From: Kiritimatiellia bacterium
GTDB lineage: Bacteria; Verrucomicrobiota; Kiritimatiellia; RFP12; UBA1067
Direction: 5' to 3'
DNA: 49,681 nucleotides
NCBI GenBank assembly: GCA_017563185.1
Contig: JAFXIL010000176.1
Coordinates: 1-49,681, forward strand
Shown one piece after another: positions 976 to 4,823 of the stretch; position 1 is the stretch's first letter; each line of letters opens with the position of its first letter. Below the pieces are notes generated by a model, which did no database searches, was not told the DNA's origin, and saw nothing but the letters and a program-made list of their open reading frames with translations. The position numbers were made by a program, and so were the translations under genes.

Positions 976-1007
976 GACGGTAACTTCATCGAAAGGAGTT
1001 GCATCTT

Positions 1008-3383
1008 ATGGAAACTACTGAGAAGAAGCTGGGATTCTTCGCCCGCCTGTGCAAGGGTCTGGCGCATCCGGCGACGACGTTCATATTCGGCGTGGCGCTG
1101 CCGTTCGCGGCGGTGTCAATTGAAATCTGCACGGGAATGTGCGACGAGGCGTTCAGCAACCCGCTCACCGGCAACGTCGCAATGCAGGTTGCGATGTCGC
1201 TCGTGCCGGTGTGCAACTTCATCGTGTGGCTGTTCTCCCTGAAGGGATTGGGCGTGGACAGCCGATGCCTGCGCGCGCTGTGCGGCCTCTCCTTCGGCAT
1301 TGCGGTGGTGTATGCCTTGGCGTTCTTCCCGTTGGCGGTCGTTGGCGCGATATTCTGCTGCTTGGCGTTCTGGTACTTAGGAGTTGGCCTTTTGGGCATT
1401 CTGCCGTCCGCTCCGCTCTTCGCCGCCCTCGCCGCGCTCGGATTCAGGCGAAAGCTGAACCGGCTGCGCGAGGAGGCTGGCGGCGCCGCGGTGAAGGGTT
1501 TTGGCTGGGGACTATCCGCGGCGGCGATAATCTGGTTGGCACTTTTCGCAGTCCACATCGTGATGGCATACGGCGTGAGTCTCGCCGCGCGGGACGATGC
1601 GGCGGAGTCGGCAAAGGGCGTCCGCATTCTGCGCACGCTGGCGAATGAGGACGCCGTTTGGGACCTTCTGCATGACTACGGTTCGCGCGGCAACCTGCTT
1701 GCGCCATTGGCTTTTTTCGAGTGGACTCAAGAGCAGATATCCATGAAAAAGCGTCGTCTCATCTTCTACCGCGTCACCGGGCAGGATACAGATACTCAGG
1801 AATGGTGGAGGAGAGGCAATAGAAGGCGGCGCTTTCTGAACTGGGACGCCTTCGTTGGCGGCGAGAAGATGGGCGGCGTGCTCGACGGCCTCTCGCTCAA
1901 GGGCTCCAGCTACACCACTGTCGTTGACGAGCCGGGCTGCGCGGGATATGCCGAGTGGACGCTCGTCTTCTCCAACGAGCGGAACTGGAACCAGGAGGCG
2001 CGCGCCCGCGTGGCGTTGCCGCACGGCGCCGTTGTCTCGCGCCTGACGCTCTGGATAAACGGCGAAGAGCACGAGGCCGCGTTCGGCACGAGAGGGCAGG
2101 TGCGCCGCGCATACGAAAGCGTTGTCCGCCGCAACCGCGACCCCGTGCTCGTGAACGTGTGCGGTCCCGACCAGGTGCAGGTGCAGTGCTTCCCCGTGCC
2201 CCCGAAGGGGGAGATGAAGCTGCGCCTCGGAATCACCGTGCCACTCAAGCCATCCGTTGACGGTAAGACGGCATTGCTCCCCGCGCCCGCCATCACGGCG
2301 CACAATTTCAGCATCCCTGGCGATCTTCTTGGCATGCCTTCCGACGAGACGAAGGCCCTATCCGCGCCGCCTGCGCCCGTTGCAGTGTGCTCCGACGACA
2401 AGCTGCTCTCCGCACTGCCTGTAGTGGGACGCGCCATCATGCAGCGCGCGAGCCTCGCCCCCGCCTGGAAGCCGAAGCGCGTGGCCGTGGTGATTGACGC
2501 CTCCGCCTCGATGGACGACTTCTTCAAGAAGGACGCCGCACGTTCACTCGCCGCGCTTCCCGCCGACGTTCCAGTCGATCTGTGGCTCGTCGGCGACGTC
2601 GCTCCATCCGCGCCCGCCGTCTCCTCGCCCGCGGGCGACGCTGGCCGCGCGGCCGCCTTCGAGAAGGCGCTCGTTGGCCAGGACCGTGTGGGTGGACGCT
2701 GCAACCTCGTAGCGCTCGTGAAGGCGTTCGAGAAACTATCCCGCTCCGGCGAGTCGTCCGCGCTCGTGTGGATCCACGGAGCGCAGCCCGTCGTGTCGCA
2801 GACGGCTGACGTTCTTTCCGCGAAGATCGCCGCCGCCGCGAACGTGCGCGTGTTCCTCTGCCAGGTTTCGTCCGGAACGTGCGAGATCACTGGCGCGCTT
2901 GCGCCGTCTCTCTCGATATCCTCCTGCTCCGCTGCGGCCATCAACAACGGCGCCGCCGGAACGCTTGAAGGACTCTTCTCCGGCTGGGGCACGCAGGGAT
3001 GGCAGATCACCCGCGCGAACGTCGCGCGCGCCGACGTGCCGGCAGACGCCGTGCAGGCGGGGCGGCATCTTGGACGGCTCTGGGCCGCCGAGGAGACGCT
3101 GCGCACGTACAAGGTGGGTGATCCCGTCAGCCTTGAGAAGGCGCAGAAGTTCGCATTGCCGTGGCAGATCGTGACGCCCGTGACGGGAGCGGTGGTGCTG
3201 GAGACGGCCGAACAGTACAAGGCGAACAATCTCAAGCCTGCGGACTCCGAGTCAGTACCCACCACGACATCATCGTCGGTGCCTTCCGTGCCGGAACCTG
3301 GCACTGTCTGCTGCCTTCTGCTTGCCGCCCTTGCGGTGGCGTTCGTTGCGGTGCGCCGCGCGCGGAATGTGCGGCGGGCGTAA
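1008..3383 (+). CDS. Membrane VIT/VWA-domain protein with PEP-CTERM sorting signal
   Basis: The start is ATG 1008, preceded by GAAAGGAG at 991-998; a TTG at 999 is also in frame but less likely. The 791-residue product has about six N-terminal hydrophobic segments (residues 20-190). A VIT domain follows (about 315-415; N..E..ARVALPHGAVVSRLTLWI, then DPVLVNV and a CFPVPPKGE block), then a VWA domain with a DASAS MIDAS-type motif (about 497). The C-terminus is a classic PEP-CTERM: VPEPGT (about 761), a hydrophobic helix and the basic end RRARNVRRA. This architecture resembles the MSEP-CTERM proteins that pair one-to-one with exosortase N, although the motif here is VPEP. It overlaps the downstream exosortase gene, so it is the obvious substrate. 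Its biological role is unknown. Confidence 0.8.
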   Translation: METTEKKLGFFARLCKGLAHPATTFIFGVALPFAAVSIEICTGMCDEAFSNPLTGNVAMQVAMSLVPVCNFIVWLFSLKGLGVDSRCLRALCGLSFGIAVVYALAFFPLAVVGAIFCCLAFWYLGVGLLGILPSAPLFAALAALGFRRKLNRLREEAGGAAVKGFGWGLSAAAIIWLALFAVHIVMAYGVSLAARDDAAESAKGVRILRTLANEDAVWDLLHDYGSRGNLLAPLAFFEWTQEQISMKKRRLIFYRVTGQDTDTQEWWRRGNRRRRFLNWDAFVGGEKMGGVLDGLSLKGSSYTTVVDEPGCAGYAEWTLVFSNERNWNQEARARVALPHGAVVSRLTLWINGEEHEAAFGTRGQVRRAYESVVRRNRDPVLVNVCGPDQVQVQCFPVPPKGEMKLRLGITVPLKPSVDGKTALLPAPAITAHNFSIPGDLLGMPSDETKALSAPPAPVAVCSDDKLLSALPVVGRAIMQRASLAPAWKPKRVAVVIDASASMDDFFKKDAARSLAALPADVPVDLWLVGDVAPSAPAVSSPAGDAGRAAAFEKALVGQDRVGGRCNLVALVKAFEKLSRSGESSALVWIHGAQPVVSQTADVLSAKIAAAANVRVFLCQVSSGTCEITGALAPSLSISSCSAAAINNGAAGTLEGLFSGWGTQGWQITRANVARADVPADAVQAGRHLGRLWAAEETLRTYKVGDPVSLEKAQKFALPWQIVTPVTGAVVLETAEQYKANNLKPADSESVPTTTSSSVPSVPEPGTVCCLLLAALAVAFVAVRRARNVRRA

Positions 3384-4794
3384 AGTGCGCGTGTGCGTGG
3401 AGAGGGCGCTTGCGGCGCTTGCGTGGGCAGGTGCGCTGTGGCCGCTCTGGCGGTGGCTGGGCGCCCGCTTTGCAGAGCCGTTCGACGCGGGTATTGCCGC
3501 GTGGACGGCGCTCGTGGTGCTGATCGTTGACGAATGGAGACGTGCCGGGTGGAAGGCGTCCACGCCGAGTGCAGGCGCGTATTTCGCGGCGGCGTGCGGC
3601 CTTGCGCTGTTCTGGGCGCTGCGTCCGCTTCTGCCGATAACGCTCTGCGGCGCGTTCGGCGTTGTGGGGGGCTTGCCGATTCTCCTGCCGGGCGCGCGCG
3701 ACCAGGGTATGCTGCCTGCGCCGCTCGCCGCTCTGGCGGTGGCCGGGATGCCGTCCCTGTTCGTCGCCGACATGTTCCTCGGCGTGCCGCTGCGCCTCGT
3801 CTCCACTGTGTCCGCCGCCACACTTCTGCGCTTTGCCGGCTTTGATGTTGCGCGCAATGGAATGGAGATCGCGGTGGGCGGCGTGCCGGTGTGGGTGGAT
3901 GCTCCCTGCGCCGGCGTGAAGATGCTCGGCGCGGGCCTTGTGGCCGCTTTCGTGATCGCGCAGATATGGCGTTTCAGGTTCTGGCGCACCGCGCTTGCGG
4001 CGGCGATCGCGGTCGTTGCGGTGTGCGCGGCGAACGTGGCGAGAGTGGCCGTGCTAACGCTGTTCGCGGCGTATGGACGCCCCCTTGGTTCGTTCGCGCA
4101 CGAAGTGGTTGGATGTGTGGCGCTTGCGCTTGCGCTTCTTGCCGTCGTGTACATGCCGCGTTGTGGGTTTCGAAGTTTCTGGTTTCGAGTTTCTGGCTTC
4201 TTATTTCGAAATGGTAGGGAGCGCTCCCCTAGTGCGCCGAATGGTAGGGCGCGCTCGCCGAGCGCGCCGCAATGCCGGGTGAACTTGATTCAACGTTTCA
4301 TTTCCATTTTCGTCTTTGCTGCTGCCGCTCTCATGTGCATCGCATTCCCCATGCCGCCGAGGGAAGCCGATGAACAGGTGGCGCGGGGCTTCCCGGGATG
4401 GCCGGTGCAGTTTGAGGGAGAGGCGATTGCGGAGGAACCGTTGAGCGAGCTCGAGAAGGGCTTTGCAAAGAGCTTCCCGGGAAAGATCGGACGTTTCCGC
4501 GCGGGTAGGCGCATTGTGATTCTGCGGTGGACGACGCGGCTAACGCACCGGGTGCACGGGGCGGCGTACTGCCTTGAGTCGACGGGGTGGAAGATAGAGC
4601 CTCGTCCGCTAGAGGCGCGCGCCGATGGCGTATGGTCGGCGTTTCGCGCCACGCAGGGCGGAAAGATGCTGCATGTGCGCGAACAGGCGCGTGACGTGTC
4701 AGGAGCCACGTTTGCTGACGTGCCGGCATGGTTCTTCAGTGCCCTGCTCGGCCGTTCCGTCGGTCCCTGGTGGATCGTCACCGTAGCCGAGTAG
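3367..4794 (+). CDS. Exosortase with C-terminal EpsI-like domain
   Basis: Exosortases are membrane cysteine transpeptidases that cleave PEP-CTERM signals. The expected catalytic triad is visible: Cys181 (VDAPCAGVKML), Arg226 (NVARV) and His245 (FAHEVVG), set among about eight hydrophobic helices. After residue about 310 comes an extracytoplasmic domain with one further membrane helix and an EpsI-like pattern (FPGWPVQFEG, GRFRAGRRIVILRW, an RVHGAAYCL block), as in exosortases fused to their accessory protein. ATG 3367 is chosen; it overlaps the upstream gene by 17 nt. GTG 3385 is an alternative, and neither has a strong ribosome site. Residues about 268-301 are encoded by a repeat insertion at 4167-4269 that joins the two domains. 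Confidence 0.85.
   Translation: MCGGRKVRVCVERALAALAWAGALWPLWRWLGARFAEPFDAGIAAWTALVVLIVDEWRRAGWKASTPSAGAYFAAACGLALFWALRPLLPITLCGAFGVVGGLPILLPGARDQGMLPAPLAALAVAGMPSLFVADMFLGVPLRLVSTVSAATLLRFAGFDVARNGMEIAVGGVPVWVDAPCAGVKMLGAGLVAAFVIAQIWRFRFWRTALAAAIAVVAVCAANVARVAVLTLFAAYGRPLGSFAHEVVGCVALALALLAVVYMPRCGFRSFWFRVSGFLFRNGRERSPSAPNGRARSPSAPQCRVNLIQRFISIFVFAAAALMCIAFPMPPREADEQVARGFPGWPVQFEGEAIAEEPLSELEKGFAKSFPGKIGRFRAGRRIVILRWTTRLTHRVHGAAYCLESTGWKIEPRPLEARADGVWSAFRATQGGKMLHVREQARDVSGATFADVPAWFFSALLGRSVGPWWIVTVAE
4167..4208 (+). repeat. Degenerate GTTTCGA-GTTTCTG tandem repeat inside the exosortase gene
   Basis: The stretch repeats units of the type GTTTCGAAGTTTCTG / GTTTCGAGTTTCTG, with a weaker third unit. 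It is translated in frame as a Phe/Arg/Ser-rich linker (GFRSFWFRVSGFLFR), unlike anything in the exosortase family, directly after the last helix of the catalytic domain. Confidence 0.65.
4210..4269 (+). repeat. Two tandem copies of a 30-nt palindrome-containing repeat, in frame
   Basis: Copy 1 is 4210-4239 and copy 2 is 4240-4269; both begin AATGGTAGGG and end GCGCCG. Each contains a palindrome: GGGAGCGCTCCC in copy 1, and the 9-bp hairpin GGCGCGCTC-GCC-GAGCGCGCC in copy 2. The unit equals ten codons, so it adds NGRERSPSAP then NGRARSPSAP without shifting the frame. It looks like a dispersed intergenic repeat that has landed in a coding region. Confidence 0.75.
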
Positions 4795-4798
4795 CTTA

Positions 4799-4823
4799 GA
4801 AACCTCGAAACATCGAAACTTTC
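4799..4823 (-). repeat. Inverse-orientation copy of the GTTTCGA-type repeat
   Basis: Read on the minus strand this gives units such as GTTTCGATGTTTCGAGGTTTCT, closely resembling the array at 4167-4208. It lies 5 bp after the exosortase stop codon, so the EpsI-like part of the gene is bracketed by inverted copies of one simple repeat. Confidence 0.45.

Follow-up and report, generated by a model that had tools for sequence, protein, structure and literature searches.

GTAG-tagged REPs were surveyed in 2013 (PMC3733652); that survey reports intragenic copies, most of them in Opitutus terrae, and places the Verrucomicrobia among the richest hosts. Rickettsia palindromic elements (RPEs) are also palindromic repeats that lie in frame in many unrelated genes, and the survey treats RPE-4 and RPE-6 as CGTC REPs. 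On the protein side, fusions of EpsH with EpsI are a known architecture, noted in 2006 (PMC1569441).

Here we analyse a window (the whole stretch of 49,681 nucleotides from a Kiritimatiellia bacterium) in which the two domains of one exosortase gene are linked by an in-frame repeat block. The units in this block share with the GTAG REPs of PMC3733652 the GTAG at one end, a short stem-loop with a 9-bp stem and a short loop, stem subfamilies with complementary changes, an occurrence as singles, dimers and groups, ORF-internal copies coding for short peptides, and an association with RAYTs. Unlike the Opitutus terrae elements of that survey, they belong to a Kiritimatiellae-type MAG lineage, and no cognate RAYT was found in their own genome. 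They resemble RPEs in their in-frame residence, but the equated RPEs carry CGTC rather than GTAG, RPE-1 is longer, and the hosts are Alphaproteobacteria. The host protein has the same order as XrtT-type proteins and as EpsH with an EpsI-like C-terminus (PMC1569441), an exosortase followed by an EpsI-like domain in one chain; unlike XrtT, it scores far below the family cut-off and carries REP units in the linker, which we found only in the window's own genome (G000) and in G011. Since intragenic GTAG REPs were already described in 2013, the case is a well-resolved example of a known phenomenon. With a probability of about 0.88, we interpret the block as an in-frame insertion of GTAG-class REPs in the interdomain loop of an already fused exosortase, beside an unrelated dispersed GTTTCNN repeat.

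The exosortase gene and its linker block

The features of the locus are as follows.

3385..4794, + strand: fused two-domain exosortase gene, XrtT-like (ORF, PF09721, NCBIfam XrtQ/XrtT-like matches, fused orthologues)
3418..4152, + strand: transmembrane exosortase domain, residues 11-255 counted from 3388 (Pfam PF09721)
4167..4209, + strand: 43-nt stretch of the GTTTCNN heptamer repeat, dispersed in its own genome, translated (G)FRSFWFRVSGFLFR; sequence GTTTCGAAGTTTCTGGTTTCGAGTTTCTGGCTTCTTATTTCGA
4210..4239, + strand: REP unit 1, 30 nt, 10 codons, NGRERSPSAP, palindrome partly decayed; sequence AATGGTAGGGAGCGCTCCCCTAGTGCGCCG
4240..4269, + strand: REP unit 2, 30 nt, 10 codons, NGRARSPSAP, GGTAG hairpin intact with a 9-bp stem and 3-nt loop; sequence AATGGTAGGGCGCGCTCGCCGAGCGCGCCG
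4273..4791, + strand: predicted membrane helix and C-terminal EpsI-like / XrtT C-terminal domain (NF033770, AlphaFold2)

The exosortase ORF runs from a GTG start at 3385 to the stop at 4792-4794 and begins one base past the stop of a VIT-domain, PEP-CTERM-like protein (999-3383). This upstream protein has its PEP-CTERM-like signal at the C-terminus and is likely a dedicated partner of the exosortase. The N-terminal part of the exosortase matches PF09721 with an E-value of 7.6e-24, and for the C-terminal part the sole match is to the fused XrtT model, and there only to its C-terminal half (NF033770, positions 290-403 of 472). The block thus sits between an exosortase domain and a C-terminal domain, where the preliminary description had placed it. 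That description had also named the second domain EpsI-like. The XrtT C-terminal half speaks for the name, but no EpsI-specific model in Pfam or NCBIfam matched the window exosortase and the Pfam EpsI model matched 0 of 10 orthologues; based on the XrtT-model match and on position, the label is plausible but weakly supported. The NF033770 (exosortase T) score of 82.9 bits is below the cut-off of 250 bits, and despite its matching architecture the protein is not filed as XrtT.

The predicted content of 4167-4269, GTTTC-type repeats followed by two tandem 30-nt palindromic units, proved exact in its coordinates. The block reads through in frame between the two domains as FRSFWFRVSGFLFR-NGRERSPSAP-NGRARSPSAP, and both units begin on a codon of the ORF, in one phase. 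Hexamer coding scores are near zero on the flanks of this REP copy, and the frame is supported here by homology on both sides. REP unit 2 folds into a 9-bp/3-nt hairpin with a perfect stem (-12.9 kcal/mol, z -2.4), while unit 1 folds no better than shuffled sequences and differs in its peptide by a gained Glu. No Rfam family matched in the linker block. In an AlphaFold2 model, linker residues 267-298 lie between predicted helices at pLDDT <50, followed by a helix at 300-319 and then an alpha/beta domain; the model is mediocre (mean pLDDT 67.5), so the disorder is indicative only, and a Foldseek search of the PDB with it returned nothing usable.

The REP family in the window's own genome

All units of the family are 26 nt long and share one anatomy, in which GGTAG precedes a 9-bp stem closed by a 3-nt loop, and judged from sequence the 30-nt unit of the linker is a GTAG-class REP element. 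In the 3.2-Mb genome, the exact 29-mer has 6 matches, and 11 within 3 mismatches, against 0 for the reversed pattern. The looser pattern GGTAGGG-N17-CC gave 63 matches versus 34 when reversed, the excess being mostly true hairpins. We counted 51 hairpins in 355 kb of this genome versus 8 in the reversed sequence, a density biased upwards since these stretches were picked mostly around matches and favour REP-bearing places. The expectation that the unit would prove to be a dispersed repeat with many copies was therefore borne out, with about 50 copies in the genome. Set against the reversed controls, neither this unit nor the GTTTCNN repeat of the linker is a product of chance. Across 26 distinct near-intact units (at least 8 of 9 pairs), the stems average 8.69 of 9 Watson-Crick pairs, compared with a mean of 5.11 and a maximum of 6.54 in the arm-shuffled control, and compensatory pair types occur at 7 of the 9 stem positions. 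The elements are arranged as singles, as inverted pairs (at loci L002, L007, L101 and L115) and, in the window, as a direct tandem.

REP copies inside other genes

The preliminary description had likened the units to dispersed intergenic repeats. They are indeed dispersed over dozens of places, but they are not only intergenic. When the flanks were judged by a hexamer model of coding sequence from the same genome, at least 22 of the 51 copies proved to be in frame in ORFs with both sides coding-like. Under strict thresholds, strand and frame are retained at all 13 merged sites with strongly coding flanks, with no shifted site, whereas about one third would be expected to retain the frame by chance. 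At least a dozen genes besides the exosortase carry REPs in this way. Nearly all units are free of stops in five of the six reading frames, so in-frame residence is easy. Among the hosts are glycoside hydrolases and enzymes related to them (GH127, GH31, GH95, GH123, rhamnosidase, NAGLU), a sigma factor, an MMPL-like protein and a protein kinase whose REP falls between HRDIKPGN and the DLG motif. For seven host loci (L094, L096, L097, L105, L111, L114 and L115), orthologues are present that do not have the REP-coded residues; at L114, for example, 'RLLGGRGAPALPGGFEY' stands against 'LRPGGGFEY' in such an orthologue. Of 105 usable copies of the exact unit in other genomes, 30 have coding sequence on both flanks, and 24 of these are in frame and open, with 5 in another frame and 1 containing a stop.

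It is possible, although we hold it as a tentative and rather doubtful proposal, that REPs recurrently supply loop and linker sequence in this genus, that certain loops of secreted glycoside hydrolases and other proteins are hit repeatedly, and that RAYT-driven elements thereby shape protein evolution. At L111 (4443-4500) and L101 (3509-3562) and in their orthologues, sister species have REPs of differing stem type in one and the same protein loop, which hints at hot spots of insertion or at conversion between REP types. Several other peptides recur near REPs in ORFs (ETASVQQQ, KQQAYNSK and ETQRRR, at L141, L142, L186 and L190, which are orthologues of the L097 and L111 hosts, and at L090); these resemble additional dispersed repeats that are translated in frame.

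Fused orthologues with and without the repeat

Ten exosortase orthologues were aligned. The closest, from G011, is 96% identical and has the same linker, but with three units, the additional one being an intermediate version of REP unit 1. Eight relatives, 63-33% identical, are fused without either repeat and have a shorter linker; they come from the same genus (G005, G014, G010, G012), the same family (G023, G035) and the same order (G052, G048). G049 has two separate genes, which share an ATGA overlap and whose joint, inspected at the DNA level, holds no repeat; G009 has the two parts on separate contigs. REP units in the exosortase linker are thus confined, among the orthologues aligned, to G000 and G011. 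Since fused orthologues exist without the repeat, it would have entered an existing interdomain loop in the G000/G011 lineage. The genomes of G010, G012 and G014 are rich in REPs, yet their exosortases have no insertion, an absence that fits chance insertion. The repeat-free orthologues are only about 60% identical, so the exact ends of the insertion cannot be read at the window gene.

The preliminary description had proposed that the repeat may have fused two formerly separate genes, and had looked to relatives for separate genes. In such a scenario, an insertion between the two would have removed a stop and joined the frames. The block does lie exactly at the domain junction, and split or dispersed arrangements do exist, in G049 and G009. 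However, the eight repeat-free relatives are fused instead, the split G049 has no repeat at its joint, XrtT itself is modelled as a fused family, and EpsH-EpsI fusions were already known (PMC1569441). We consider this origin extremely improbable and reject it on account of the repeat-free fused orthologues. The linker peptide might alternatively be under selection, as an Arg-rich, Pro/Ser-rich segment with a role in exosortase topology, docking or regulation. That its frame has been kept while the units multiplied to two and three would agree with such a role, as would the fact that, for other genes, orthologues at 85-98% identity still carry the REP-coded peptides. Against it, the Arg/Pro/Ser peptide is missing from every fused orthologue besides G011, and unrelated proteins contain the same peptide, at positions that bear no relation to one another. 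In the exosortase, one unit no longer forms its hairpin and has acquired a Glu, and the linker is predicted to be disordered; together these points make selection on the peptide unlikely.

We also weighed whether the units act within the gene as RNA or DNA elements, such as an mRNA hairpin, an attenuator or a protein binding site, rather than as coding sequence. Their stems covary, so hairpins are maintained across the family, but this genome-wide covariation speaks for the REP family and not for the window site, where unit 1 has lost its fold and the linker has no Rfam family; a role of this kind is very unlikely. The preferred reading, a REP insertion into a gene that was already fused, turns the apparent "fusion scar" in the exosortase into a passenger. 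More broadly, GTAG REPs, usually seen as extragenic, are common inside genes of this uncultured Kiritimatiellae-type lineage. For annotators, peptides such as NGRARSPSAP, GGRGATALP or TARSASAPYQ, where they stand in these proteins, should be read as translated mobile DNA and not as protein motifs.

Distribution of the REP class and its RAYT genes

Other genomes contain the exact 26-mer in at least 110 stretches, nearly all from Verrucomicrobia, Kiritimatiellae or Lentisphaerae. It also occurs in Luteitalea and Spirochaetaceae MAGs (L247, L289, L301, L316), through either transfer or binning errors. Pattern matches reach 484 in G010 (control 81), 433 in G012 and 351 in G014. A Lentisphaerae bin and Ereboglobus (L225, L227) contain RAYT-like genes that carry the motif PDHLHGL, are bracketed by copies of this REP class and have the exact unit on their flanks. 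A search with Pfam Y1_Tnp alone returned 31 loci, none with GGTAG REPs, and missed the cognate enzymes; these were found with a two-sequence profile built from the loci of the Lentisphaerae bin and Ereboglobus. With this profile, RAYT-like genes that the REP class flanks were recovered from eight genomes belonging to the window's genus or family (G001, G004, G008, G010, G012, G014, G034, G035; REP-flanked loci L325, L330, L332-L335, L337 and L340), and 63.7 kb of sequence from 20 RAYT-like loci contains 43 hairpins against 1 in the control.

In the window's own genome, whose assembly is 97% complete, we found no RAYT cognate to the GGTAG class: 0 of its three Pfam Y1_Tnp genes are flanked by a GGTAG REP, and the best match to the cognate profile is distant (9.1e-8). 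One of the three, a RAYT-like gene (contig C164, L048), has a GGAG-type hairpin, GGGGAGGAAGCGACAAGAGTGTCGCTTCCCC, on both sides, at positions 1319 and 2146.

From this sequence evidence, HUH tyrosine transposases of the RAYT type are the most likely agents of mobilisation for the REP family, and its entry into the variable interdomain loop of the exosortase would most likely have been a RAYT-linked transposition. Tandem duplication of 30 nt, or slippage, would then have produced the two units of the window gene and the three of G011, an order of events that we infer. The GTTTCNN stretch presumably entered separately. The insertion appears to have been tolerated and may be neutral for the protein; it would survive because its length keeps the frame, because five of six frames are stop-free, and because an Arg/Pro/Ser peptide is placed in a loop predicted to be disordered. 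By the positive-inside rule, Arg-rich loops lie on the cytoplasmic side of the membrane, and the linker loop, being Arg-rich, is probably cytoplasmic. Presence and absence of the element among orthologues, together with cognate transposases in sister genomes, form a natural series in which to ask about insertion neutrality.

The GTTTCNN repeat and a possible rearrangement in G011

The first 43 nt of the block belong to a different repeat. A search of the window's own genome for GTTTCNNGTTTCNNGTTTC gave 38 matches, in dispersed GTTTCNN arrays, versus 0 in the control. The GTTTCNN stretch is absent from the fused exosortase orthologues other than that of G011. Genome-wide, in a comparison made without G011, the repeat is rare in the other genus members tested and nearly confined to the window's own genome; it is also present in G041, from another family. 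G011 carries it at the exosortase site.

In G011, a second copy of the 3' half of the exosortase gene (corresponding to window 4315-4801) lies about 7.5 kb from the first, next to a tRNA-Ser gene (locus L081, G011 contig C27, 1312-3907 and 11427-13357). Between the duplicates lie genes for a regulator and for large secreted proteins, and the junction carries a GTTTCGA-like stretch, which suggests a repeat-mediated rearrangement.
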